DNA of 64,000 nucleotides from Pseudomonadota bacterium (lineage in GTDB: Bacteria > Desulfobacterota > Desulfobulbia > Desulfobulbales > JAHJIY01), in the NCBI GenBank assembly GCA_018823175.1, contig JAHJIY010000013.1, positions 28,329 to 92,328 on the forward strand, in the 5' to 3' direction. How positions within the stretch are numbered: position 1 is the stretch's first letter; every line of letters begins with the position of its first letter. Positions 592 through 34,452 of the stretch are shown piece by piece. Under the pieces are notes generated by a model. That model saw only the letters and a program-made list of their open reading frames with translations. It searched no databases and was not told the origin of the DNA. A program made the translations under genes and the position numbers.

Positions 592-1395
592 ATGTCTTAC
601 ATACTTGATGCTCTGAAAAAATCAGACCAGGAAAGAAAGCAAGGAGAGATCCCCACCCTGCAGACCATCCAGAATCAGGGAGGGAAATCGACGCCCCGGA
701 AAAAACTCTGGCCTTATCTGGTGGCCGCAGCCCTCCTGATCAACGCCGCCGTTCTGGCTTACTGGCTACGCCCTTCTTCGACCGAGGAGCAATCGACCGC
801 GACCAGGATAATTGCCGGGAAACCAGCCATCCTTGAGACGACCGGTCCGGAAAAATCGCAAGAGTCCGGCCAGGCCGAGGTTGCCACGGCCCCGATCAAA
901 CAACCGACTTCGACCGAGCCGTCAGCGCCGGAGTTGGACACCATGGCCCCCCAACCCGCCTCCTTTCCGGACAATGACGATAATCCATTAAACACCCCGG
1001 ATGAAGAACAGGATCCGGTTGTCGTTCAATTTGAGGAAGACCAGCCTGCAATCCCTGAGAACGCAGAAGACGAACCATTATTTCAGGAGACACCCCAAGC
1101 GGATAGGTCGATGATCCCGGCCGTAACTTTTGAGCCGGAAGAACCTAAATTCGCAGCCAAAGGTAAGATCCCCGAGTTGGACGAACTGCCACCGGCAATC
1201 CGCCGACAACTATCAGACATGAACATCTCCGCCCACTTCTACGCCAACAATCCAGCTTCGCGGATGGTCAGCATCAATGGCCGCATCCTGCGCCAGGGAC
1301 AGTTAGTCGAAGAAGGACTCCTGGTTGAAGAAATAACCACCTCCGGCATCCTCTTCAACTTCCGCGATACCCGCTTCATTTTGAAGGTATTCTAA
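592..1395 (+). CDS. gspB: GspB-family general secretion pathway protein
   Basis: The protein has 267 residues. It starts with the highly typical MSYILDALKKSDQERKQGE, has one membrane segment at about residues 40-58, then a Pro/Glu-rich periplasmic linker, and ends in a compact domain (about 199-267) matching the GspB C-terminal region. GspB works with GspA at the inner membrane to assemble or position the type II secretion secretin. The linker is rich in acidic residues and proline and is probably unstructured. Placement directly after gspA supports the assignment. No other gsp genes lie downstream, so this is a detached gspAB pair. Confidence 0.85.
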   Translation: MSYILDALKKSDQERKQGEIPTLQTIQNQGGKSTPRKKLWPYLVAAALLINAAVLAYWLRPSSTEEQSTATRIIAGKPAILETTGPEKSQESGQAEVATAPIKQPTSTEPSAPELDTMAPQPASFPDNDDNPLNTPDEEQDPVVVQFEEDQPAIPENAEDEPLFQETPQADRSMIPAVTFEPEEPKFAAKGKIPELDELPPAIRRQLSDMNISAHFYANNPASRMVSINGRILRQGQLVEEGLLVEEITTSGILFNFRDTRFILKVF

Positions 1396-1711
1396 GAAGC
1401 GGTCGGCTAAAGTTCCACCGTAAAATAAAATCTTTACCTTAGACCGGTATATTTTTGCATCTCCGGCTTACCGTGATCACCCTCGCTCTCCTGCCTCATA
1501 AAACAACCCTCAAATTAACATCCCTCGCCGAAGACCTGAAAACGAAAAATACGATATCCATCTCTCAGCTGCAAAAAAACTAATTGGAAATTATTTTTTC
1601 CTATTTGAAACTATTTATTTATTCCCCTACAATAGAAATATAACCCTAAATATGAGTAAGGAATTTGCTCCAATCAACATATCAAAACTAGGGCCAACAG
1701 GGAGAATGAAA
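1396..1711. other. Intergenic region without a recognised gene
   Basis: About 316 bases between gspB and the first PilZ gene. The second half is AT-rich, with runs of T and A around 1565-1625, and probably carries the promoter of the PilZ gene, but no clear -35/-10 pair or terminator stands out. Confidence 0.4.
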
Positions 1712-2086
1712 ATGAGCCAGATGATGCAGGACTTCAAAAACCGCCGGGAGCATAAAAGATTTCTCGTAAAGGATGGAGTTTTTGCTCTCGACTCAACCAG
1801 GTTCGGCAGCATTCTGGACATCAGTCTCGGAGGGCTGTCTTTGAGCAGTCTTAGTCAGCATGGCTGGTCTTTGCATGTATATGACACCGGAATCATCCTT
1901 TCCGAAAACGATATTTACCTGCGAGACATCCCCTTCAGGATCACCTCAAAAACCGAGATGAAAAATGAAGAATCCTTCAGCACCATAAAAATAATTCGCA
2001 TTGGCCTTAAATTTGGTTCATTAGATAATCAGCAGTTGACCTCACTAAAAAACTTCATCATCAACAAAACCTCAGCCGAGGCCTAG
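1712..2086 (+). CDS. PilZ-domain protein
   Basis: A 124-residue single-domain PilZ protein. It keeps the c-di-GMP binding signature: an RxxxR motif (R12-R16, within RREHKR) and a D/NxSxxG motif (D36, S38, G41, within DISLGG). It is likely a cytosolic c-di-GMP receptor that acts on motility, polysaccharide or secretion by protein contact. I chose ATG 1712 because GGAG at 1701-1704 sits seven bases upstream; the frame is open to an earlier ATG at 1652, which has no visible ribosome binding site. A clear paralogue lies at 2669-3049, separated by two mobile repeat elements. Confidence 0.8.
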   Translation: MSQMMQDFKNRREHKRFLVKDGVFALDSTRFGSILDISLGGLSLSSLSQHGWSLHVYDTGIILSENDIYLRDIPFRITSKTEMKNEESFSTIKIIRIGLKFGSLDNQQLTSLKNFIINKTSAEA

Positions 2087-2142
2087 AAATAAAATATCAA
2101 AAGCAATATTCCTGAAACGAACCACTCATAAAATATCCTGGT

Positions 2143-2287
2143 TAGTGTCTATCCAGAAATGATAATTTTTGTTCGCGCTCAAAGCATGCGAAAAAAATAA
2201 CCGCAGGCATATATTTGATATTCCGAGGATTATTTTTTTCGCATAACGCAAAGATCGGGCGAAAAGACCGTTTATGGACAGGTACTA
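2143..2287. repeat. MITE-like element, copy 1
   Basis: About 145 bases bounded by imperfect terminal inverted repeats: TAGTGTCTATCCAGAAATG at the left and the complement of that pattern at the right end, about 2269-2287. The inside has a perfect 15-base inverted repeat (ATGCGAAAAAAATAA and its complement, about 2187-2250), so the element can fold into a long hairpin. It has no coding capacity. The ends begin and finish in TA, which recalls IS630/Tc1-type elements that duplicate TA, but no transposase is present. It directly adjoins a second copy. Confidence 0.65.
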
Positions 2288-2288
2288 G

Positions 2289-2435
2289 TTAGTGTCTGTC
2301 CAGAAATGCGGATTTTTATTCGAGAACGAGGAGCTAGGATTTTGAAAAGCGCAGCGGACTGCTGTCCGTGAGCACTTTCAAAGAACGAAGCGACGACGTA
2401 ATCGGAGAAAAAGACCATTTATGGACAGGCACTAG
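2289..2435. repeat. MITE-like element, copy 2
   Basis: About 147 bases with the same terminal inverted repeats as the preceding element (TAGTGTCTGTCCAGAAATG at the left; CATTTATGGACAGGCACTA at the right, about 2417-2435). The interior differs from copy 1 but is again palindromic, with TTTGAAA/TTTCAAA and GCGGAC/GTCCGT arms. Shared ends with unrelated centres suggest two members of a family mobilised by a transposase encoded elsewhere. Confidence 0.65.
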
Positions 2436-2668
2436 TTAATTGACAGCAGCTCCCAATCTGTGTTGTAATATTTCAAATAATGTTTGCCGGGAGAGATTAT
2501 CGGTGGCCCCTTTTTCTTACCACCTATAAATCTGATCCTTATCTGACGGGTAAAATTATCATAGCCACCGGGCACCGCTCAATACCGTTGAGAAGTTCAT
2601 CGCCCTGGCCGGCAAACGCAAAGTTTCCGGATCGGACTTTCGCCCACCGAGTTTAAACAGGAGAGGTA
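2436..2668. other. Intergenic region, possible gene remnant
   Basis: Between the repeats and the second PilZ gene. The part from about 2560 to 2660 has coding-like composition and short open stretches in two frames, as if the tail of a decayed gene remained, but I cannot assign it to a family. AGGAGAGG at about 2659-2666 is the ribosome binding site of the next gene. Confidence 0.3.
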
Positions 2669-3049
2669 ATGGTCAAAAAAAAGAAGAAAAAGCCGCTTGA
2701 ACGCAGAGAACATAAGCGTTACTCGGCCAACGCCGCCACCTGCGCCTTAAAATCAAAAACCGGCCAGATTATTGACATCAGCATGGGTGGCCTGGCCTTC
2801 AGCTATATCGACCGGGGCGACTGGTCAAACGAATCCCTGGAACTCGGCATGTTGTTCGGCGAAGGAGATCTCTGCATCGATGAGCTCCCCTTAAAAATTA
2901 TCTCCGATTGCGCCATCGGCAACGGCATTTCAATGATCAGAAGATGCGGCGTCAAATTCGGCGAACTAACCCCCAAACAGATCGCCCAACTCGAATACTT
3001 CATCTGGGCCAACACGGCGGAAAGAAACGAAAAAGACTTCCTGGCCTGA
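2669..3049 (+). CDS. PilZ-domain protein (paralogue)
   Basis: A 126-residue PilZ protein. A lysine-rich start (MVKKKKKKPLERREHKR) leads into the RxxxR motif (R13-R17), followed by DISMGG with D36, S38 and G41. It aligns along its whole length with the PilZ protein at 1712-2086, so the two are paralogues. It likely binds c-di-GMP in the cytosol; the basic N-terminus could help with nucleotide, nucleic acid or membrane contact. The start is fixed by AGGAGAGG just upstream. The next gene begins 25 bases later, so the two may be cotranscribed. Confidence 0.85.
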   Translation: MVKKKKKKPLERREHKRYSANAATCALKSKTGQIIDISMGGLAFSYIDRGDWSNESLELGMLFGEGDLCIDELPLKIISDCAIGNGISMIRRCGVKFGELTPKQIAQLEYFIWANTAERNEKDFLA

Positions 3050-3073
3050 ACCCTGCCGGTTACCACTCAAACC

Positions 3074-4729
3074 ATGAACACTCTGCTAAAACCATTCTTC
3101 TGGTCGGCCAAACACCGTTTTTTCCCGGCCGGAAACATTCCTTTAAAGACTGCCGGCATAGCGCTATTCAGCAGCACCGTCTGTCTGGTCCTTTATTTTG
3201 TCTCACTAAAAGCACTTAACTACTTTCACAGCCAGAACGAACTGGGCATTATCCTGGCCCTTAAAATATTCCAGATGGCCTGGATCGTCATGTTTGCCAT
3301 GCTGATTTTCTCGTGCATGGTCTCCGCCGTCTCAACCATCTTCCTCTCACAGGACAATGAGATCATATGTGCGGCGCCGATCCAGCCCTTTAAAATATTC
3401 CAGATGCGTTACATCACCACCTCAATTTATACTTCCTGGATGATGGTCATCTTCTCAATCCCGATCTTTGCCGCCTATGGCCAGGTTTTCAAGGCGGGAT
3501 TACCCTATTGGCCATTGATGCTGCTGGCAATCATCGCGACCGCCGCCACCGCCACCGCCTTTGCCACCACCGCCACCATCGTGCTGGTCAATCTTTTTCC
3601 GGCCCGACGAACCAAAGATATTCTGCTTTATCTCTCTTTATGTTTCGGAATCTTTATTTATGTGATGTTTCGCCTGATGCGCCCGGAAGACCTGGTAAAC
3701 CCCGACAAATACGGCCATTTTGTCGACTACCTCTCCAGCATTTCCACCCCGGCCGCGCCATATCTGCCCGCCGCCTGGACTTCCAATTTCCTGTCCCTCT
3801 ACCTGCTTGAGCGACAAATTGACTGGCTGCTTCTGGCCCTGATTCTGATTACTCCCTTTGCCTTATTTTTTATTGGGGAATGGGTCATGCAGCGCTGGTT
3901 CTTCGCCGGATATTCCAAATCACAGGAATCTTTTGGCGGTTTTCACCGTTTCGGATCGTTAAGTCGATACCGACCCAAGGCCTGGCAGTGGATCTTTGCC
4001 AAGGAACTGAAAACATTCTTGCGCGATTCCGCCGAGTGGTCGCAGATTTTCATGATCGGCGCCCTGATCATCGTCTATCTCTACAACTTTAAAATTTTAC
4101 CGGTTGAGAGATCTCTTTTTGAAAAGGAATACATCACCAACCTCATCTCATTTCTCAACATCGGCCTGACCGGTTTCATGGTAGCTTCACTTTCAGCCCG
4201 TTTCGCCTACCCGGCGATCGGGACCGAAGGCAACGCCTTCTTTATCATCCGTTCATCCCCCCTGCCTCTTTATAAATTTCTTATGCACAAATACCTGTTT
4301 TATGTAATTCCCTTCACCATCCTCGCCATCATTCTGGTTGCCGCCTCCGACCATCTGCTCCAGATTAACGGGCCGATGTGGTGGTTTTCGGTGGGCAGCA
4401 TTATTCTGATCACCTGGACGGTAGTCGCCCTGGCCATCGGCTTCGGCGCAATTTACGCCGATTTCAAGGCGGAAAACCGGGCCGCCGCCCTGGGTGGAAT
4501 AGGAGCGATAATCTTCCTGTTTTCTGCCATATCCTATGAGATGATCGTCATCCTCTCCGGGGTCTACCCGGCCTACCGGATCGTGGGTAAATGGCTGCGA
4601 AAGATGCCGATCACCATGATCGACTGGTCGATTCTAGCCGCCTGGGGTTTACTGGCAACTGCCCTGGGGTTTTATCTTTCCCTATTTTTTTTCCGGAAAG
4701 GAATCAAAAAACTCCAAAATTATTCATAA
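3074..4729 (+). CDS. Multi-spanning ABC-2-type exporter permease-like protein
   Basis: A 551-residue integral membrane protein with roughly twelve hydrophobic segments grouped into two halves (about residues 30-240 and 330-545) around a soluble stretch at about 275-330. It resembles the uncharacterised ABC-2-type permease family sometimes called putative ABC exporter proteins. No ATPase subunit is next to it, so the energy source and substrate are unknown. It follows the PilZ gene by 24 bases and precedes yifB. There is no obvious Shine-Dalgarno sequence at the ATG, consistent with translation coupled to the upstream gene. Function is not assignable beyond a transport-type membrane protein. 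Confidence 0.6.
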   Translation: MNTLLKPFFWSAKHRFFPAGNIPLKTAGIALFSSTVCLVLYFVSLKALNYFHSQNELGIILALKIFQMAWIVMFAMLIFSCMVSAVSTIFLSQDNEIICAAPIQPFKIFQMRYITTSIYTSWMMVIFSIPIFAAYGQVFKAGLPYWPLMLLAIIATAATATAFATTATIVLVNLFPARRTKDILLYLSLCFGIFIYVMFRLMRPEDLVNPDKYGHFVDYLSSISTPAAPYLPAAWTSNFLSLYLLERQIDWLLLALILITPFALFFIGEWVMQRWFFAGYSKSQESFGGFHRFGSLSRYRPKAWQWIFAKELKTFLRDSAEWSQIFMIGALIIVYLYNFKILPVERSLFEKEYITNLISFLNIGLTGFMVASLSARFAYPAIGTEGNAFFIIRSSPLPLYKFLMHKYLFYVIPFTILAIILVAASDHLLQINGPMWWFSVGSIILITWTVVALAIGFGAIYADFKAENRAAALGGIGAIIFLFSAISYEMIVILSGVYPAYRIVGKWLRKMPITMIDWSILAAWGLLATALGFYLSLFFFRKGIKKLQNYS

Positions 4730-4812
4730 GCCTGCTATCATGGCTGAACCTGACCGCTCCGGGCAGGAAAATCGCCCCACTGACCACCGCACCATAAAAT
4801 AAAGGAGTAAAA

Positions 4813-6348
4813 ATGCTGGCCAAGATCAACAGCGGATCGGTATCTGGAGTTGATGGAATTCCGGTAGAGGTGGAAGTTGATATCGCCTTTGGCCTACCCT
4901 CCTTTTCTACCGTTGGTCTGCCCGAGGGCGCCGTCCGGGAAAGCAAGGACAGGGTCAAGGCGGCGATCAAAAACACCGGCTACGATTTCCCTAACCGCAG
5001 AATTACCGTCAACCTGGCGCCGGCCAACCTGAAAAAAGTCGGGGCCGGATACGATCTGCCGATTGCCATTGGCATCCTGGCCGCCGCCGAGACTTTCAGC
5101 AGCAAGACTTTAAATAACTACGCCGTGATCGGTGAGCTATCTCTGGATGGGGCGGTCCGCCCGGTAACCGGCATTCTGCCCATGGTTATTGCGGCCCGTG
5201 ATCTCGGATTAAAAGGAATAATTGTCCCCGCCGCCAACACCACTGAAGCTGCGGTGGTGGCCGGCATTGACGTAATCGGAGTCGACACCCTGCATCAGGC
5301 GGTCGAATTCTTAGCTGGAATCAATGACTTGCAACCAACCAGGGTTGACCTGAAAAAAATATTCAAGGATAATTCCAGTCATGATCTCGACTTTTCAGAG
5401 GTCAGAGGACAGGAAAACGTCAAACGAGCGCTGGAAATAGCCGCCGCCGGCAATCATAATGTCCTGATGCAAGGCCCCCCCGGCTCGGGCAAAACCATGC
5501 TGGCCCGCCGCATGCCGACCATCATCCCGGACTTGTCTTTTGATGAGGCCCTGGAAACCACCAAGATATACAGTGTCGCGGGCATGATGACCGATAACAA
5601 AGGTCTGGTCACCAGCAGACCTTTTCGCGCCCCGCATCACACCATCTCCGATGCCGGCCTGATCGGCGGTGGCCAATTCCCCCGGCCGGGTGAAGTATCA
5701 CTGGCCCACAACGGAGTACTCTTCCTGGATGAATTTCCTGAGTTCAAGAAAAATGTCCTGGAGGTATTGCGCCAACCGCTAGAAGACTCCACCGTTACCA
5801 TCTCCAGGGCCGCCCACTCCCTTAATTTTCCGGCCCGATTCATGCTGATCGCCGCCTTGAATCCCTGCCCCTGTGGTTATCACGGTGATTCACGCAACCA
5901 ATGTTCCTGCACCGCCGTACAGATTCATCGCTACATGAGCCGTTTATCCGGACCACTGCTCGACCGGATTGATATTCACCTGGAAGTGCCGGCCGTTCCC
6001 TTCAAGGATATCGCCAACACCCACGAGGGTGAATCATCCAGCGCGATCAGAGCCAGGGTTACAGCGGCCAGGAATATCCAGCAAAAAAGATTTAGTCGCC
6101 ATAAAAAAATATACTGCAACAGCCAGATGACTCCGCGAGATCTCAAAAAACACTGCCTCCTGGACCAGGCCGGCAACTCTATTCTAGAAAAAGCGGTTTC
6201 CCGCCTGCACCTTTCGGCCCGGGCCTACCATCGGATCATTAAAATAAGCCGCACTATCGCCGACCTGGCCAAATGTGATACAATACAAGTAGAGCATATA
6301 GCAGAAGCCGTGCAATACCAACGGCTCAACAAAAAAAATCAGCCGTAA
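4813..6348 (+). CDS. yifB: YifB/ComM-family Mg-chelatase-like AAA+ ATPase
   Basis: A 511-residue protein of standard family length. It has an N-terminal Lon-protease-like (ChlI) domain (about 1-170), a Walker A motif GPPGSGKT at 221-228, Walker B LFLDEFPE around 303-310, the Cys-rich NPCPCGYHG signature near 350, and the C-terminal Mg-chelatase helical domain. ComM of this family is a hexameric helicase that promotes branch migration during natural transformation and homologous recombination; elsewhere the role is less clear. AGGAG eight bases upstream fixes the ATG. Confidence 0.92.
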   Translation: MLAKINSGSVSGVDGIPVEVEVDIAFGLPSFSTVGLPEGAVRESKDRVKAAIKNTGYDFPNRRITVNLAPANLKKVGAGYDLPIAIGILAAAETFSSKTLNNYAVIGELSLDGAVRPVTGILPMVIAARDLGLKGIIVPAANTTEAAVVAGIDVIGVDTLHQAVEFLAGINDLQPTRVDLKKIFKDNSSHDLDFSEVRGQENVKRALEIAAAGNHNVLMQGPPGSGKTMLARRMPTIIPDLSFDEALETTKIYSVAGMMTDNKGLVTSRPFRAPHHTISDAGLIGGGQFPRPGEVSLAHNGVLFLDEFPEFKKNVLEVLRQPLEDSTVTISRAAHSLNFPARFMLIAALNPCPCGYHGDSRNQCSCTAVQIHRYMSRLSGPLLDRIDIHLEVPAVPFKDIANTHEGESSSAIRARVTAARNIQQKRFSRHKKIYCNSQMTPRDLKKHCLLDQAGNSILEKAVSRLHLSARAYHRIIKISRTIADLAKCDTIQVEHIAEAVQYQRLNKKNQP

Positions 6349-6373
6349 AAAAATTACCGCTTAAACAAATTAT

Positions 6374-8197
6374 ATGGTAAACGACCCACCCCAAATACCG
6401 CCGGAGGTTCACCAGCAAAATCCTGGCCTTAAATCTACTGAAGCAGATATTACGCCCGAACCAGTCGAAACGAGAATCATAAATCCTGAAGCAGAAGAAG
6501 CAATCAATCGACTGTCGACCGCCATTTATGCCACTCTCCAAAAAAGCCAGGACAGCATCAAATGCTCCCTGCGGTTACCCGACTCAAATAAGGTCCCCCC
6601 CAAACTATTAGCCACGTCACTGGAAAAAATACTGCACGACAACTTCGGTATCCTGATCCCGAGAACAACCAAATCAAGGATAAAACTTCGCGCCAGCGAT
6701 CAATTCTCCGCTCCCTCACAACCAGGATTACCTGCCAGAACCGTTCAAATCTCATTCGAAGAACCGGCAAGACTGAAAATAAATGGCTGCCTCCCGAAAA
6801 AAGGAGAAGACAGCTATGCCGACCTGGCTTTCGACTGGGAAAAACGATCAGGGACCATTGATTTAACCGGCAGCATCGACTGGAAAAAGATCAACAGTAT
6901 CCCAAACATCCTCAGCGGCGAACTCCTGGCCACAATTCATGATCGAACCGAAGGATTCCCCGGAGTCGATTTTCTCGGCAGACCGATAAAACAAGCACCC
7001 GGACGCCGCCATCCACTAAAATTTTCACCCGGGCAAATTTCCCGAAAAGACGACCCAAACAATGAAACAATCTGCCGACTATATGCCAACTTTTCCGGAG
7101 CGGTCAATTTCAGGTTTAGAAACCCGCAAGACCCCAAAACCCTTGAACGCATTAATATAACCGAAACACTCTCGGTAAAAAGCGACGTCAACTACGATTT
7201 CGGAAACCTGGAGAGTGCGGCAAACCTGGAAATTGATGGTAGTCTCAGGGGAAATTTTTCAATTCAGTCCGATGGATACATAAAAGTAAAGGGCTCGGCC
7301 GAAGGTAGAATGATCACGGCCCGCAAGGTGATTGCCCGTCTGATTACCAATGGCTGCGTGGTCAACGCCCGAGAGGAAATCGAGTGTGACAACATCAATA
7401 ACGCCACTGCCACTGCAGAAACCATAAACATCAAGCAAACCGCCAGCGGCGCCACTTTAAAAGCAAGACAGAAGATATATTTCAACGACAAATCATCTTT
7501 TCTCGGAATCAAATTTTACGCCCGAACCGTAATTTTGCAGGGCACCAGATTTGCGGGAATAAATGAGATTTTTTTAGGAGAAGAACTATTTCAGACAGCG
7601 GCGAAATTACTGGATAAAAGCGGCGAACTTGCCAAAATCACCGAAGATCTGGAAACTTCGGCCGGAGACATGGCCCGAAACATTATTACTTTGCTATTGC
7701 AGGTCGAAGAACTTACAAAGTCAGAACAGGCAGGCTCCGTAATCAAAGAGCTGATCAACTCCCTGAAACGTGATCTCCTCGAGACAATCCAATTCCTGGA
7801 TATGATCAGCGCAGCAATTTCAGATGCATCCTACGAACTTGAGACGGTTCTGGGTGAACGCAATTACAACGAGTCAATCCAGCGGAAAGTCGACCAGATG
7901 ATCACCCAGATTAAACGTTACAATGCACTTCAGGTTGAATTCACCCAGGCAAACTCCAAATTATTACAAAACCAGAGCGAACGGCAGGAAATAAAAGAGG
8001 CGATCGTTAATCATCTGGCCCTCGAAATGAATAATTGCCAGATGATAAATCCCAGCGCCGAATTAAAAATTAAATGCGGCAGCTCCTACATGATTGTAGA
8101 TCACAACAATTTCTCATCGACAAGAATCAACATCAGATATCATCTCCCCGAAGACAGTGAAATATTTGATGAAGGGATTCTGGAAATTTCACCATGA
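6374..8197 (+). CDS. fapA: FapA-family (DUF342) polymer-forming protein
   Basis: A 607-residue protein. Residues about 1-190 form a variable N-terminal domain; the centre (about 230-400) is a beta-helix-like DUF342/FapA core with repeated short beta strands (NLESAANLEIDGSLRGNF and similar); the C-terminus (about 410-540) is strongly coiled-coil. FapA proteins are described in Vibrio as flagellar assembly regulators and are widespread in Deltaproteobacteria and Firmicutes with poorly known roles. It starts 25 bases after yifB. No flagellar genes are in the window, so a flagellar role is not supported by context. The protein ends 10 bases before a convergent gene and no terminator is visible. 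Confidence 0.75.
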   Translation: MVNDPPQIPPEVHQQNPGLKSTEADITPEPVETRIINPEAEEAINRLSTAIYATLQKSQDSIKCSLRLPDSNKVPPKLLATSLEKILHDNFGILIPRTTKSRIKLRASDQFSAPSQPGLPARTVQISFEEPARLKINGCLPKKGEDSYADLAFDWEKRSGTIDLTGSIDWKKINSIPNILSGELLATIHDRTEGFPGVDFLGRPIKQAPGRRHPLKFSPGQISRKDDPNNETICRLYANFSGAVNFRFRNPQDPKTLERINITETLSVKSDVNYDFGNLESAANLEIDGSLRGNFSIQSDGYIKVKGSAEGRMITARKVIARLITNGCVVNAREEIECDNINNATATAETINIKQTASGATLKARQKIYFNDKSSFLGIKFYARTVILQGTRFAGINEIFLGEELFQTAAKLLDKSGELAKITEDLETSAGDMARNIITLLLQVEELTKSEQAGSVIKELINSLKRDLLETIQFLDMISAAISDASYELETVLGERNYNESIQRKVDQMITQIKRYNALQVEFTQANSKLLQNQSERQEIKEAIVNHLALEMNNCQMINPSAELKIKCGSSYMIVDHNNFSSTRINIRYHLPEDSEIFDEGILEISP

Positions 8198-29015: not shown

Positions 29016-30251
29016 ATGAAACTAAAAGAATCACCTGTTGCCGAACCGGAAGAACCCCCATCGCCGCAAATTTTTTCCGGAGCGCTCGCCGTCAGCGCCC
29101 CAAACAATTTCACCACCTCCTTCCGGCAAAAATTTTTTCCCACCGCAACCGAAAACGATTGGCATAACTGGCAATGGCAGCTCAGGCACCGGATTACCAG
29201 CCTGAAACAACTCGAAAAAATCATTAATCTTTCCGAGAACGAGCGACAGGCCATGCAGTTCACCGGCACCGTTCTGCCGCTGGCCATTACCCCTTATTAC
29301 GCCAGCCTGATTGATCCTGACGATCCAAATCAACCAATCAGACGGACGATGGTTCCCACCACCGGCGAGCACATGGTTTCCCAGGGCGAAGAGCATGATC
29401 CTCTTGGCGAAGACGGCCACAGTCCGGTTCCGGGACTGATCCATCGCTATCCGGACCGGGTGCTCTTCCTGGTTACCGATTACTGTTCAAGCTATTGCCG
29501 ATACTGCACCCGCTCACGAATGGTCGGCAAACGGGCCGGCACCAGTAAGGCTAGGTGGCAAAAAGCCATCGCCTATATTGCCGCTCACCCGGAGGTCCGC
29601 GATGTCCTGATTTCAGGCGGTGATCCCCTTACCATGCCTGATCATCATCTGGAGTGGATACTCAGCCGACTGCGAAAAATCGATCATGTCGAATTGATCC
29701 GGATCGGGACCAAGGCCCCCATTGTTTTGCCGCAACGAATCACGCCGGACCTGATCGCCATGCTCAGGCAATATCACCCCCTGTGGATGAGTGTTCACTG
29801 CACCCATCCGGAAGAACTGACCCCCGAGTCCCGTCAGGCCCTGACCAGACTGGCCGATGCCGGTATTCCGCTGGGCAGCCAGACCGTGTTGCTGGCCGGG
29901 ATTAACGATTCAGTTAAAACCATGAAAACCTTGATGCAGGGGCTGGTCAAAAACCGGGTCAAACCCTATTACCTTTACCAGTGTGATCCGATCATCGGCT
30001 CCGCCCATTTCCGGACGCCGGTCTCCAAAGGACTTGAAATTTACCAGGGACTCCGGGGCCATACCACCGGTTATGCGGTGCCCAATTACGTAATCGACGC
30101 CCCTGGCGGCGGCGGCAAGATCCCGCTCTTGCCGGAAACCGTGGTCGGCCGCGAAGGGACCGATCTCCTGATCCGCAACTATGAAGGCAAAGTATACCGC
30201 TATCCCGATGTGATCGGTGGCGGCGCAGACCGGAATGGGAGTGAATCGTAA
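29016..30251 (+). CDS. kamA: KamA-family radical SAM aminomutase, probable lysine 2,3-aminomutase
   Basis: A 411-residue radical SAM and PLP enzyme. The iron-sulfur motif CxxxCxxC is C157, C161 and C164 (CSSYCRYC). The PLP lysine is K368 in DAPGGGGK. D324 (YQCDPIIG) and D361 (start of DAPGGGGK) correspond in spacing (37 residues apart, then seven to the lysine) to Asp293, Asp330 and Lys337 of the clostridial enzyme, where the two aspartates bind the lysine side chain. That favours lysine over glutamate, giving beta-lysine. It is the first gene of a compact five-gene operon with two ATP-grasp ligases, an acetyltransferase and a deacetylase fusion; the next start overlaps its stop by one base. 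EpmB, which modifies EF-P, is a related alternative, but no epmA or efp is nearby. Confidence 0.85.
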   Translation: MKLKESPVAEPEEPPSPQIFSGALAVSAPNNFTTSFRQKFFPTATENDWHNWQWQLRHRITSLKQLEKIINLSENERQAMQFTGTVLPLAITPYYASLIDPDDPNQPIRRTMVPTTGEHMVSQGEEHDPLGEDGHSPVPGLIHRYPDRVLFLVTDYCSSYCRYCTRSRMVGKRAGTSKARWQKAIAYIAAHPEVRDVLISGGDPLTMPDHHLEWILSRLRKIDHVELIRIGTKAPIVLPQRITPDLIAMLRQYHPLWMSVHCTHPEELTPESRQALTRLADAGIPLGSQTVLLAGINDSVKTMKTLMQGLVKNRVKPYYLYQCDPIIGSAHFRTPVSKGLEIYQGLRGHTTGYAVPNYVIDAPGGGGKIPLLPETVVGREGTDLLIRNYEGKVYRYPDVIGGGADRNGSES

Positions 30252-31243
30252 TGCAGATTGGCATGACATATGATATGCGGTCGGACTATCTGGCTGAGGG
30301 CTATTCAGAGGATGAAACCGCCGAATTTGACCGCGACTCAACCATTGCCGCCATAGAAAATGCACTGGCGGCAATGGGCCACAAACCAGTCCGGATCGGC
30401 AATTTAAAAAGTCTGGTTAGCCGACTGGCGGCCGGAGAGCGTTGGGACCTGGTCTTCAATATCGCCGAAGGACTTTATGGGTTCGGCCGTGAATCACAGA
30501 TCCCTGCCCTGCTCGACGCCTACCGGATTCCCTATGTTTTTTCAGATCCACTGGTCCTGGCCTTGACCCTGCACAAGGGGATGACCAAACATGTGGTCCG
30601 GGACCTGGGGATTGCCACCCCTGATTTTGCGGTAGTCAAGAGCGTCGCCGACCTTGCCGGCCTTAACCTGCCCTACCCGCTTTTTGCCAAGCCGGTAGCC
30701 GAAGGAACCGGTAAGGGAGTAAACGCCACCTCAAAAATCAACAACCCCAAAGAACTCGCCCGAATCTGCGGAGAACTGCTAACTACATACCGCCAACCGG
30801 TGCTGGTCGAAACCTTTCTGCCCGGCCGGGAGTTTACGGTAGGCATCGTCGGCAACGGCGCCGCCGCCCACTCCATCGGAATCATGGAGGTTGTCCTGCT
30901 TGAAAAAGCGGAGGCGGAGATCTATTCCTACCATAACAAGGAGAATTGCGAGGAGCTGGTAGAATATCAGGTGCCGAATGATCCAGAAGCGAAACTAGCT
31001 ATAGAGGTGGCCCTGGCGTCCTGGCACGCCCTGGGCTGTCAGGACGCCGGGCGGGTCGATCTGCGCTCCGATGCCAACGGCTACCCAAATTTCATCGAGG
31101 TCAATCCCCTTGCCGGTCTGCACCCGGAACATTCTGACCTGTGTATCATTGCGACCAAATACGGAATCAGTTACCAGAAACTACTAAATGAAATCGTCGG
31201 AGCGGCCCTGGTCCGAACCGGACTTTCTCAAAAGGCCGGTTGA
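30251..31243 (+). CDS. ATP-grasp ligase, D-Ala-D-Ala-ligase-like (first)
   Basis: A 330-residue ATP-grasp enzyme. Visible elements are the lysine-containing ATP-binding stretch YPLFAKPVAEGTGKGV, the hinge VLVETFLPGREFTVGIVG, and the magnesium-binding end DLRSDANGYPNFIEVNPLAG with Asp, Glu and Asn in the usual positions. It forms a carboxylate-amine bond with ATP. It is probably not the housekeeping Ddl, since it lies in an operon with an aminomutase and a second ligase and not with cell-division genes. The likely substrates are amino acids, perhaps beta-lysine. The start overlaps the kamA stop by one base. Confidence 0.82.
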   Translation: MQIGMTYDMRSDYLAEGYSEDETAEFDRDSTIAAIENALAAMGHKPVRIGNLKSLVSRLAAGERWDLVFNIAEGLYGFGRESQIPALLDAYRIPYVFSDPLVLALTLHKGMTKHVVRDLGIATPDFAVVKSVADLAGLNLPYPLFAKPVAEGTGKGVNATSKINNPKELARICGELLTTYRQPVLVETFLPGREFTVGIVGNGAAAHSIGIMEVVLLEKAEAEIYSYHNKENCEELVEYQVPNDPEAKLAIEVALASWHALGCQDAGRVDLRSDANGYPNFIEVNPLAGLHPEHSDLCIIATKYGISYQKLLNEIVGAALVRTGLSQKAG

Positions 31244-31245
31244 AC

Positions 31246-32235
31246 ATGCAAATCGGGGTCATCCACAATCAACCGATTCCTAAAGGTGAACCTAACTGGG
31301 AGTCATCGATTGATGTCATGGTGCAGGTTGAGGCAATTAGCCGCGCCCTTACCGAACTTGGCCATGTCCCGATCGCAATCCCTTTCACCAGGGACCTGGC
31401 GAGTTTTATCAACCAACTGCAACAGGCGGATGTTGAAGCAGCCTTCAACCTCTGCGAGTCGGTTGATGAGGACCCGCGATTGATCGGCCATCCGGCGGCG
31501 GTCCTTGAATTGCTCGGACTGCCTTTTACCGGATCTTCCTCAATGGCCCTGGCCGTTTCCACCGATAAACTACTGAATAAAAGAATCATGGCAAATGCCG
31601 GGATCAGGACCTCAGCCTTTTTTGCCTACGAAGGAGGCGAGGTTCCCCGTCCGCTCAACCTCACTTTTCCCCTGATCATGAAACCACGGTGGCAGGATGC
31701 CAGCATCGGTATTGACCAGGAATCAATGATTTTAAACAGTAAAGGAATGCTTAAGACCCTGAGCGATTTTTACCGCCGCTTCGGGCCATTACTGGTTGAG
31801 GAATATGTCGAAGGGCGAGAATTTAACGTCTCGCTGCTGGGTGATCCGCTGCCCCGGGTCATGCCGCTGGCAGAGATTGATTTCAGCGGGTTCCCTTCTG
31901 ATCTTTTCAGGATTGTCGGTTATAAGGCCAAATGGGACGAAGAGTCTGCAGAATATAAAACTACCGGCCGGGTCTTTCCCGATGATTTACCCCGGGACCT
32001 TTCCCGCTCGATCCGTCGGGTGGCCAAAGATTGTTTTCAGCTCTTCGGCTTACGCGATTACGGGCGAGTTGACATGAGGATCGATTTCCGGGGCCGGATT
32101 TATGTGCTGGAGGTCAACGCCAATCCCTGCTTATCCCCCGATGCCGGCTTTACTGCGGCAGTTCTCAAGGCCGACCTGTCCTACAAGGGAATGGTCGGCG
32201 AACTGGTCAATCAGGTCAACCGGAGAATTAGATGA
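31246..32235 (+). CDS. ATP-grasp ligase, D-Ala-D-Ala-ligase-like (second)
   Basis: A 329-residue ATP-grasp enzyme. It has FPLIMKPRWQDASIGI for ATP binding, LLVEEYVEGREFNVSLLG, and YGRVDMRIDFRGRIYVLEVN for the metal-binding end. ATG 31246 lies just after the previous stop (31241-31243); a TTG at 31240 is also possible. It is only distantly similar to the preceding ligase, so the pair is not a recent duplication: either a two-step condensation or a heteromeric enzyme is possible. Residues 75-110 include CESVDEDPRLIGHPAAV, which may help define specificity. The next gene overlaps by four bases. Confidence 0.8.
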   Translation: MQIGVIHNQPIPKGEPNWESSIDVMVQVEAISRALTELGHVPIAIPFTRDLASFINQLQQADVEAAFNLCESVDEDPRLIGHPAAVLELLGLPFTGSSSMALAVSTDKLLNKRIMANAGIRTSAFFAYEGGEVPRPLNLTFPLIMKPRWQDASIGIDQESMILNSKGMLKTLSDFYRRFGPLLVEEYVEGREFNVSLLGDPLPRVMPLAEIDFSGFPSDLFRIVGYKAKWDEESAEYKTTGRVFPDDLPRDLSRSIRRVAKDCFQLFGLRDYGRVDMRIDFRGRIYVLEVNANPCLSPDAGFTAAVLKADLSYKGMVGELVNQVNRRIR

Positions 32236-32705
32236 TGATTACCATCCGACCGGCAACAATGGCTGATCGAAAACAACTGTTGGGGCTGGTTTTAGCCCAG
32301 GATAATTTTACCGAAGAGGAACAGGAAGTTGCCCGTGAGGTTATCGAAGACAGTTTGTTCAAAAGAGATGATTACCAGATCCTGACCGCCGTTGAAAAAA
32401 ACGGCGCTCTGCTCGGTTTTGTCTGTTATGGTATAATTCCAATGACCGAAAAGTCTTTTGACCTCTACTGGATCGCCACCGCCCCGGAACACGGCCGGCG
32501 CGGAATCGCTTCCCAGTTGCTGTCAGCCATGGAAACGGAGCTCAACAAATCGGCCGGAGCAGTCGTCTATGTCGACACCTCGTCAACCGATGGGTATGAA
32601 CGGGCCCGCTCTTTTTATGAAAAGAACGGTTACCAGGTCGCAGCCCGGTTCAGTAATTTTTACAAAACCGGCGATGACAGGGTGATCTACCGCAAGGAGC
32701 TGTAG
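32232..32705 (+). CDS. GNAT-family N-acetyltransferase
   Basis: A 157-residue acetyltransferase. It shows motif A, WIATAPEHGRRGIASQLL, with the (Q/R)xxGxG/A-like acetyl-CoA loop, and a C-terminal family motif RARSFYEKNGYQVAARF. It overlaps the preceding ligase gene by four bases. In the Nepsilon-acetyl-beta-lysine pathway, KamA-type AblA acts with a GNAT enzyme, AblB; this protein could play that part, or acetylate the ligase product. Substrate assignment is inference. Confidence 0.82.
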   Translation: MMITIRPATMADRKQLLGLVLAQDNFTEEEQEVAREVIEDSLFKRDDYQILTAVEKNGALLGFVCYGIIPMTEKSFDLYWIATAPEHGRRGIASQLLSAMETELNKSAGAVVYVDTSSTDGYERARSFYEKNGYQVAARFSNFYKTGDDRVIYRKEL

Positions 32706-32709
32706 CCCC

Positions 32710-34452
32710 ATGTTCCGTATCCGTCGTGTGTACGACGCCACTCTTGAAATTGACAAACAGGCGATTGATCAGGTCATCAAGATTCTCTCCTCCCAGTTTT
32801 CAGGGGTAGCCGTCAAAGAACTAAGGCTACTGCCCCAAAAACTTGCCAACCCGCTCAAATACCAGTTCCGGACCATTCTGTTTGTCGCCGAAAACCAGCG
32901 CCATGAAGTCAAGGGCTGCGCCATCCTCAACCATGCACCTGATCTAGCTTTCTGCTTTCTTGATTATATTTCGGTCAGACCGGGGCGCGGGGCCGGCGGC
33001 ATTGGCGGCGCACTGTATGAAAGGGTCCGGGAGGAATGCCGGACCCTGGGAGTCCACGGCCTGTTCATGGAATGTCTGCCGGATGAACCCAAACTCTGCA
33101 GCGACCCGGTCATCCTCAGACAGAATCGGGCCCGTTTCCGTTTTTATGAACAGTATGGTGCCCGCCCCATCATCAATACCGCCTACGAGACTCCTTTGCA
33201 TCCGGATGATGACTGCCCGCCCTATCTGGTTTTTGATGACCTGGGCAGCGGCCATCTGCCGGGTTCGACCGAGATCCGTCCCATCGTCCGGGCCATTCTA
33301 CTGCGCAAATACGCGGCCTCATGTCCGCCGGGATACATTGCGATGGTGGTTGAGTCATTCCATGACAATCCGATTGTTTTGCGTCCGGCCCGTCTGATAC
33401 CCAAGACTAAAAACAATACCAGCCCAACGATTGTGCCGGATCGACAGATTCCGCTGATCGTTAACGAAAGTCATGATATCCACCATGTCCGCGAGCGGGG
33501 CTATGTGGAAGCGCCGGTCCGGATCAAGGCGATTCTCAGCGGCATTGAACCCTCCGGGCTCTTTGAGCGGATGGCGGCCCGCCATTTTTCGGAATCAAAG
33601 ATTAAAAGGGTTCATGACGTCAGCTATGTTGAATACCTGAAACGGGTCTGCACCAGACTTGAACCGGGAAAATCAATCTATCCTTACGTATTCCCGATCC
33701 GCAATGCGGCAAAACCTCCTAGAGAACTGCCGGTCCGGGCCGGTTATTTCTGTATCGACACCTTTACTCCGCTTAACCGCAACGCCTACCGGGCCGCCAA
33801 AGGGGCGGTGGACTGCGGTCTGACCGCGGCCTCCCTCATCCTGGAAGGTTACCGCCTGACCTACGCTCTGGTCCGCCCCCCCGGCCATCATGCCGAGCGC
33901 CGCGCCTTCGGCGGGTTCTGCTATTTCAACACCTCTGCCATTGCTGGAGATTTACTAAGTAAATATGGTAGAGTCGCAATCCTTGATATCGATTATCATC
34001 ACGGCAACGGCACCCAGAATATTTTTTATGAGCGAGGAGATGTGATGACTATTTCGATTCACGGTCATCCCAGCTTTGCCTATCCCTATTTTTCAGGATT
34101 TTCCGACGAACGGGGCGAAGGATCGGGCAAGGGGGCAAACCGCAACTATCCCCTGCCGGAAGAGGTCGATGGGCCGACCTATCGCCGAACCCTGGCAAAG
34201 GCCCTGCAAAGAGTGCGGAGCTTCCAGCCCAATTTTCTGATCGTGGCCTTGGGGCTGGATACCGCCCGCAAGGACCCGACCGGTACCTGGATCCTGGCCA
34301 AGGAAGATTTTTTTCTAAACGGCCAGATGATCGGTCAATTAAGGATCCCGACCGTGGTAATCCAGGAAGGGGGCTATCTGACAAAAACTCTAGGAACCAA
34401 TGCCCGTAATTTTTTTCAGGGGTTATGGCAGGGAATGTATGGGACCAAATAA
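32710..34452 (+). CDS. GNAT acetyltransferase fused to histone-deacetylase-family amidohydrolase
   Basis: A 580-residue two-domain protein. Residues about 1-200 look like a GNAT acetyltransferase (LDYISVRPGRGAGGIGG near 84, then RFRFYEQYGARPI). Residues about 245-575 are a complete deacetylase domain: H393-H394 in RPPGHHAE, zinc ligands D428 and H430 in DIDYHHGNG, D517 in LGLDTARKDPTG, and the catalytic tyrosine Y556 in EGGYL. It resembles acetylpolyamine amidohydrolases more than acetoin-utilisation proteins. Opposite activities in one chain suggest regulated acetylation and deacetylation of one metabolite, or a dead GNAT used as a sensor. It ends the operon, 4 bases after the preceding stop. 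Confidence 0.82.
   Translation: MFRIRRVYDATLEIDKQAIDQVIKILSSQFSGVAVKELRLLPQKLANPLKYQFRTILFVAENQRHEVKGCAILNHAPDLAFCFLDYISVRPGRGAGGIGGALYERVREECRTLGVHGLFMECLPDEPKLCSDPVILRQNRARFRFYEQYGARPIINTAYETPLHPDDDCPPYLVFDDLGSGHLPGSTEIRPIVRAILLRKYAASCPPGYIAMVVESFHDNPIVLRPARLIPKTKNNTSPTIVPDRQIPLIVNESHDIHHVRERGYVEAPVRIKAILSGIEPSGLFERMAARHFSESKIKRVHDVSYVEYLKRVCTRLEPGKSIYPYVFPIRNAAKPPRELPVRAGYFCIDTFTPLNRNAYRAAKGAVDCGLTAASLILEGYRLTYALVRPPGHHAERRAFGGFCYFNTSAIAGDLLSKYGRVAILDIDYHHGNGTQNIFYERGDVMTISIHGHPSFAYPYFSGFSDERGEGSGKGANRNYPLPEEVDGPTYRRTLAKALQRVRSFQPNFLIVALGLDTARKDPTGTWILAKEDFFLNGQMIGQLRIPTVVIQEGGYLTKTLGTNARNFFQGLWQGMYGTK

Follow-up and report, generated by a model that had tools for sequence, protein, structure and literature searches.

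The window analyzed here is a stretch of 64,000 nucleotides from a Desulfobulbales assembly (GCA_018823175.1, contig JAHJIY010000013.1, positions 28,329 to 92,328). At positions 29016-34452 it carries five tightly packed genes on the + strand, encoding a predicted lysine 2,3-aminomutase (KamA), two ATP-grasp ligases (AG1 and AG2), a GNAT N-acetyltransferase (GNAT) and a protein that joins a GNAT-like domain to a deacetylase domain (GHD). The five genes were confirmed as a conserved system beyond chance, since all of the first four are retained in 51 of the 59 full-context loci. On balance, we favor the reading that this operon makes an acetylated β-lysyl peptide and can also remove the acetyl cap. 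Computed here were the conservation of the genes as a system, the conserved catalytic and cofactor residues, the altered pockets of the two ligases, and the two best-matching gene pairs. The (D/E)PP-bearing variable N-terminal tail of the operon KamAs is new here.

Conservation and spread of the gene set

A scan of genomes with AG1 confirmed 184 relatives, and the best 80 loci were used for the counts below. A locus was taken as full-context when at least 1600 bases upstream and at least 3500 bases downstream of AG1 were available, and 59 of the 80 loci qualified. Gene presence was scored by tblastn with score thresholds set by us. KamA, AG1, AG2, and GNAT were present together in 51 full-context loci, and GHD was also present in 16 of those 51. 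The gene order was variable, being KamA-AG2-GNAT-AG1 in L097 and with GHD preceding GNAT in L107. In L074, KamA and an ATP-grasp domain of the D-Ala-D-Ala ligase (Ddl) type are encoded in a single frame of 800 amino acids (aa). A preliminary description of this DNA had called for a neighborhood search for the gene set across Desulfobacterota. The genes were found to co-occur as it expected, but over a wider range, as the record titles of the 80 loci name 13 phylum-level groups, in which single assignments may be wrong because the records are mostly metagenome-assembled genomes.

In addition, 146 genomes of the host's order were surveyed, with gene sets picked by eye from listings. AG1 was present in 47 genomes, AG2 in 48, and both in 45. 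Both AG1-only genomes hold partial AG1 pieces. Among the three AG2-only genomes, one (L137) has a diverged ligase in the AG1 position and two have a partial AG2, one of these at a contig start. GHD was present in 39 genomes, all of which also hold AG1 or AG2. In the L137 locus (3210-6946), the diverged ligase lies between KamA and AG2, and the KamA bears two EEPPS motifs.

Distance correlations across 57 loci were highest for KamA-AG1 (0.86) and AG2-GNAT (0.88), compared to 0.63-0.78 for the remaining pairs and a maximum of 0.18 over 999 permutations, and for all pairs they also carry shared species history.

Residues and affiliation of KamA

KamA (29016-30251, 411 aa) contains radical SAM and LAM_C domains and matched the solved lysine 2,3-aminomutase 2a5h with an E value of 4e-135. 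Within an ungapped block, KamA residues D324 (codon 29985-29987), D361 (30096-30098), and K368 (30117-30119), all on the + strand, correspond to D293, D330, and K337 of the 2a5h chain. We take the Asp pair of 2a5h to bind lysine and the Lys to bind pyridoxal phosphate (PLP). The spacing that the preliminary description gave for these three residues was correct by this alignment. The KamA alignment comprised 73 sequences, namely the window and 72 of 76 loci; L038, L062, L105, and L106 were left out as too short. D324, D361, and K368, together with the three cysteines of the radical-SAM CxxxCxxC motif (C157, C161, and C164; 29484-29507, + strand), were invariant in all 73.

The best-matching model for KamA was AblA (TIGR03820) at 499.1 bits. 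KamA reached 429.6 bits against the glutamate model and 402.7 bits against the arginine model, both far below their own cut-offs, and 261.9 bits against EpmB (TIGR03821), for which the cut-off is 369.3 bits. By its residue set, KamA is predicted to be of the lysine 2,3-aminomutase type, converting L-lysine to β-lysine. These residues and the lead of AblA over the EpmB, glutamate, and arginine models agree with the earlier assignment. An aminomutase that modifies elongation factor P (EF-P), which the preliminary description had named as an objection to itself, does not match the EpmB score.

The operon KamAs formed a clade apart from the host AblA, with a support of 0.75 under a rooting chosen by us. 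Out-of-clade KamAs occupy the same operon place in L074, L086, and L108 and share the same conserved residues. The host genome contains four KamA-like genes. One of them lies on contig C59 (L139), separate from the operon, as a canonical ablA followed by ablB, and its product scored 689.7 bits against the AblA model. Because the host also has this canonical pair, the operon probably provides it with a second route to β-lysine. Two more KamA-like genes lie on contigs C53 (L140) and C90 (L141), and one of them may serve EF-P, because 127 of the 146 genomes of the order have an EpmA above its cut-off.

Altered pockets of the two ligases

AG1 (30251-31243, + strand, 330 aa) and AG2 (31246-32235, + strand) both contain a Dala_Dala_lig_C domain and resemble Ddl by sequence. 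AG1 also resembles it by predicted fold, with a predicted local distance difference test (pLDDT) score of 93.7, and the 50 fold matches listed were Ddl-family enzymes of at most 28% identity. No Ddl-type model cut-off was reached by AG1 or AG2 among the matches listed (25 of 33 and 25 of 32 families). The listed open reading frame (ORF) of AG2 spans 31240-32235 and gives 331 aa from a TTG; the start is probably the ATG at 31246 rather than this TTG at 31240.

To compare the pockets, 81 AG1 and 71 AG2 sequences were aligned with the host's own Ddl, whose numbering is used here, and the N-terminal part of this alignment is uncertain. The ATP/Mg residues of Ddl were kept in 81/81 AG1 and in 71/71 AG2 except for one E-to-D change. 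The D-Ala pocket residues His65, Ser147, and Tyr218 were changed. His65 is replaced by Glu in every AG1 and every AG2. Ser147 is Thr in 80/81 AG1 and Ala in 61/71 AG2, and Tyr218 is Glu in 71/81 AG1 and Trp in all 71 AG2. Furthermore, Gly277 is Cys in all AG2 sequences (71/71). His65 is the equivalent of DdlB His63, which is presumably a D-Ala pocket residue. Ser150 and Tyr216 of DdlB, which our own alignment equates with Ser147 and Tyr218, have been linked to D-Ala-D-Ala specificity (PMC7691350, excerpt). Acidic side chains at these positions would be well matched to a donor that carries additional amines, as β-lysine does. AG1 and AG2 likely use different acceptors, because Ser282, which we take to be the acceptor-carboxylate contact of Ddl, is kept in 81/81 AG1 but in only 15/71 AG2. 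Mere misannotation of Ddl was rejected as an explanation, because the host has a separate, normal-looking Ddl elsewhere and the pocket changes of AG1 and AG2 are consistent.

Acetyltransferase and deacetylase

The closest solved relative of GNAT (32232-32705, + strand, 157 aa, GNAT domain) is 2r7h, a structure whose deposited name is "putative D-alanine N-acetyltransferase". In its acetyl-CoA loop, Gly91 was present in 64 of 66 sequences, and position 93 was Gly in 64 and Ala in 2. GHD (32710-34452, + strand, 580 aa) contains a Hist_deacetyl domain and a weak GNAT-like domain, for which one model barely passed its cut-off when the domain was scanned alone. Neither GNAT nor GHD matched AblB at E 0.001. 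The closest solved proteins of the deacetylase domain were acetylpolyamine amidohydrolases, such as 6phr and 3q9b. Alignment with 6phr placed the zinc ligands and the catalytic His and Tyr among H393, H394, D428, H430, D517, and Y556, which were kept in 18/18 sequences. N-acetylpolyamines would resemble the side chain of an acetylated β-lysine.

S58 peptidase variants

In all three loci titled WOR-3 (L073, L083, and L106), AG1 is followed by an S58 peptidase gene encoded on the opposite strand. These three loci, of which L083 lies on a short contig, yielded neither AG2 nor GNAT. In the four fetched fusion genomes of the order (L130, L131, L132, and L136), S58 is fused behind an AG1-like ATP-grasp domain, and a histone deacetylase (HDAC) gene comes next. 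The WOR-3 S58 proteins were 60-61% identical to the fused S58 domain, and four proteins scored 336.3-354.5 bits against Peptidase_S58, for which the cut-off is 23.9 bits. Solved relatives of S58 include β-peptidyl aminopeptidase. Because S58 lies beside KamA-AG1 in WOR-3 and is fused to an AG1-like ligase elsewhere, this context speaks in favor of a β-lysyl peptide that undergoes both synthesis and cleavage, the first ligation being assigned to AG1.

In L130, the fusion cluster (995-5133) lies directly after ablB. Such a sister cluster may both synthesize and hydrolyze acetyl-β-lysyl peptides.

A (D/E)PP motif in the N-terminal tail of KamA

Residues 1-29 of the window KamA are predicted to be disordered (pLDDT below 50) and include the motif E-P-P-S at residues 13-16 (29052-29063, + strand). 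Tails were collected from 72 of 76 KamAs, after L038, L062, L105, and L106 were dropped as cut or masked, and were taken back to the previous stop, up to a maximum of 120 residues. A match can thus precede the true start. (D/E)PP was present in 69 of these 72 variable tails. The feature was noted at 29016-29130 of the window and in the KamA tails of loci L035-L114. The three others were L090, which is cut by its contig, L093 with ERPPS, and L113 with EQPPS. In L086, the match apparently lies before the true start, and EEDHPPP is found instead after the likeliest Met. The pattern [DE]x(0-1)PP[GSDP] occurred in 66/72 tails, whereas 500 shuffles gave 4.3 on average and never more than 11. The residue following PP was G in 37 cases, S in 21, D in 5, P, H, and E in 2 each, and N, L, and A in 1 each. 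The nearest upstream Met was 11 or 12 residues from the motif in 39 of 67.

The motif appears to go with the system and not with position or clade, because it also occurs in two out-of-clade operon KamAs (L074 and L108) as well as in an unlinked planctomycete KamA (L142), whose genome has AG1-AG2 elsewhere, yet is absent from 9/9 other KamA-like proteins. We propose, as the preferred reading of these tails, that (D/E)PP docks KamA to a partner such as a ligase. The residue after PP resembles EF-P-dependent pause motifs (PMC4140641, in part), and a plain EF-P pause could still account for the motif. However, coupling to β-lysylated EF-P was ruled out as the general reason, because the motif persists where EpmA fails. 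Beyond the order, only three of 16 operon-bearing genomes have an EpmA above its cut-off, with one more narrowly missing it, and the motif is retained in 12 of the 13 EpmA-failing genomes; the KamA of the remaining one (L105) is masked.

Proposed pathway and its weighing

In the proposed pathway, KamA would convert L-lysine to β-lysine, and AG1 would use ATP to activate the β-lysine carboxylate and couple it to a second amino acid through the amino group of the latter. A further unit would be added or joined by AG2. GNAT would acetylate a free amine of the product, and GHD would take the acetyl group off again for turnover. The (D/E)PP tail of KamA might dock a partner, for example a ligase, to which β-lysine would be passed. 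The preliminary description had proposed an acetylated β-lysine amide or dipeptide, perhaps a compatible solute or a signaling compound. The first part of this proposal fits with two amide ligases, GNAT, and an acetylpolyamine-type deacetylase, and the S58 gene of WOR-3 strengthens the case for a peptide; the solute role did not fare as well, as described below.

Besides the shared species history in the distance correlations and the uncertain N-terminal alignment of the ligases, several points weigh against the proposed pathway. All substrates, products, the step order, and the physiological role are inferred. KamA falls short of the AblA cut-off of 525.4 bits. Among the 59 full-context loci, KamA is absent from three (L100, L109, and L114). 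AG2 was missed at threshold in L048, L058, L073, and L108, and GNAT in L048, L058, L073, L074, and L109. L048, L058, and L073 therefore keep KamA and AG1 only, and L109 lacks both KamA and GNAT. One genome of the three KamA-less loci has an operon-type KamA elsewhere (63%), and the other two hold only KamAs of about 50% identity. In the Pirellulales genome of L100, an out-of-clade KamA (L144:2837-7712) lies between asparagine-synthase-like and nonribosomal peptide synthetase (NRPS)-adenylation-like genes, named by eye. Because it adjoins the NRPS-like gene, this KamA may serve another β-lysine product. As for the peptidase, D-aminopeptidases and DmpA outscored β-peptidyl aminopeptidase against the S58 domain, and no S58 match was found in the other fetched AG1 loci. 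Most members thus show no such peptidase, because the three WOR-3 loci are the only ones where S58 adjoins the operon.

A broader version of the proposed pathway is held only tentatively. It describes a carnosine-like metabolism of β-lysyl peptides across many phyla, in which KamA would be docked through an N-terminal (D/E)PP[G/S] tag to two Ddl-descended ligases and supply them directly with β-lysine, acetylation would be reversible, and S58 and HDAC-type enzymes would recycle the product in parallel variants. If the proposed pathway is true, a bacterial metabolite that is both widespread and conserved has escaped notice, with its enzymes hidden among relatives of Ddl and histone deacetylases, and such annotations would be corrected. 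It would also reveal the way in which Ddl ligases became adapted to β-amino acids, offer enzymes for making β-peptides, and tell two lysine aminomutase pathways apart within one cell. The product would belong to an unexplored class of small β-lysine peptides that nobody has isolated.

Comparison with known systems

The AblA/AblB pathway to Nε-acetyl-β-lysine also combines a lysine 2,3-aminomutase with an acetyltransferase, and its small neutralized β-lysine product is possibly a further likeness. However, the operon KamA belongs to a separate subfamily below the AblA cut-off, its GNAT has no AblB match, and the operon contains two ligases and a deacetylase in addition. The host AblB is not beside the operon aminomutase but on contig C59.

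Pathways of the N-acetylglutaminylglutamine amide (NAGGN) type build a short peptide by ATP-grasp ligation, cap it by means of a GNAT, and have an M42 hydrolase linked to them. The operon likewise pairs ATP-grasp ligation with GNAT capping and a linked hydrolase. It differs in having two separate Ddl-type ligases, a β-amino acid supply through KamA, and a hydrolase of the HDAC type instead of M42, and no asparagine-synthase-like domain, as in NAGGN synthesis, was found in the five operon proteins.

Ddl shares its fold with AG1 and its ATP/Mg residues with both ligases, whereas the residues at His65, Tyr218, and Ser147 are changed in nearly all AG1 and AG2, and AG2 has Cys at Gly277. The acetylpolyamine amidohydrolases, the closest solved relatives of the GHD deacetylase, share its catalytic residues. 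GHD differs from them in its fusion to a GNAT-like domain and in being found only with AG1 or AG2 in the 146 genomes.

Carnosine-type β-dipeptides are made by an ATP-grasp ligase. The WOR-3 loci resemble this chemistry in that genes for supplying a β-amino acid, for ATP-grasp ligation, and for an S58 enzyme are grouped. DmpA/BapA-type enzymes form β-Ala-His in vitro (PMC9570944, excerpt). In contrast, β-lysine would replace β-alanine in the operon, and S58 is limited to WOR-3 among the fetched AG1 loci. No earlier account of the gene set was found among the listed titles and abstract beginnings of open-licence papers; the 2009 amidoligase survey by Iyer and others lay outside this search.

Alternative readings

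The same chemistry could serve to make a compatible solute during salt stress, in which case the product would be a peptide relative of Nε-acetyl-β-lysine and NAGGN. We consider this unlikely, and it is the alternative that survives best. Desulfofustis and Dasania, which are marine, carry the operon. Both β-lysine and its acetylated form are established as osmolytes, and Na+ riboswitches can precede ablA (PMC9337991, in part). In the 146 genomes, ectoine synthase (13 genomes) was present in 5/47 AG1 carriers and 8/99 others (odds ratio 1.35, p 0.76), BCCT (17 genomes) in 5/47 and 12/99 (odds ratio 0.86, p 1), and AblB (20 genomes) in 8/47 and 12/99 (odds ratio 1.49, p 0.45). AblB leaned toward carriers of AG1 or AG2, with 10/50 compared to 10/96 (odds ratio 2.15, p 0.13). 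None of these associations with osmolyte genes was significant, and they neither exclude nor support the osmolyte role. However, a search of the window found no Rfam match at the gathering threshold, riboswitches included, so that riboswitch control was rejected as a candidate. The host is already equipped with its own ablA-ablB, and some record titles contain isolate names that point to lakes, groundwater, or sludge. The compatible-solute role suggested in the preliminary description was therefore not borne out.

It is rather improbable that the ligases attach β-lysine to a protein or a wall precursor, with its amine reversibly acetylated. β-Lysine is a known protein modification of EF-P (PMC6544042, in part), EpmA is frequent in the order as given above, and AG1 and AG2 are related to a wall enzyme. 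However, KamA is far below the EpmB cut-off, EpmA mostly stays below its cut-off in the operon genomes outside the order, and the deacetylase is of the small-polyamine type. Moreover, the most frequent same-strand neighbor family besides the five genes was present in only 10/80 loci, under rough ORF calling in which families in fewer than 4 loci were unlisted and many were unnamed.

A specialized metabolite with a β-lysine block, such as a streptothricin-like antibiotic or a metal ligand, seems similarly improbable. β-Lysine is found in peptide antibiotics, and a small DMT-family membrane protein, encoded between AG2 and GNAT in eight loci, could export such a product. However, no neighbor outside the five genes recurred in more than 16 of the 80 loci, and those 16 lie on the opposite strand; most neighbor families are unnamed, and an exporter or resistance gene may be present in some of the loci. 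AG1 relatives in 13 phylum-level groups are spread wider than is usual for such products, and the deacetylase and, in some loci, the peptidase suggest internal turnover.

Finally, it is quite improbable that KamA has a substrate other than lysine, with the operon assembling a peptide or amide from some different β-amino acid: the KamA score below the AblA cut-off and the KamA clade separate from AblA paralogues would allow this, but both lysine-binding Asp residues are invariant, the glutamate and arginine models score lower, and the out-of-clade replacements in L074, L086, and L108 share the same residues.

Gene junctions and neighboring genes

The packing of the five genes, described earlier as overlaps or gaps of a few bases, was borne out by the ORF coordinates and the junctions, none of which exceeds 4 bases. 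KamA and AG1 overlap by 1 base (TAATG), AG1 and AG2 overlap by 4 bases or leave a gap of 2 bases if the ATG start is used, AG2 and GNAT overlap by 4 bases, and a gap of 4 bases separates GNAT from GHD. AGGAG is located 7 bases 5' of the KamA ATG. No conserved regulatory DNA beyond this ribosome-binding region was visible in an alignment of four upstream stretches, and promoter and terminator scans yielded no more than shuffles.

In eight loci, Syntrophaceae among them, a LysA-like decarboxylase gene lies downstream together with DUF47 and a phosphate transporter. The one decarboxylase tested scored 289.1 bits compared to a cut-off of 297.9 bits, and this neighbor may hint at lysine supply. In L049 (6223-10174) and similar loci, the DMT gene between AG2 and GNAT is accompanied by DUF47, phosphate transporter, and LysA-like genes further along the same strand. 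In L134 (3008-7470), an ATP-grasp protein has a long M20-peptidase-like C-terminal part, and its neighbors, named by eye, are γ-glutamyltransferase-like and N-formylglutamate-amidohydrolase-like genes.

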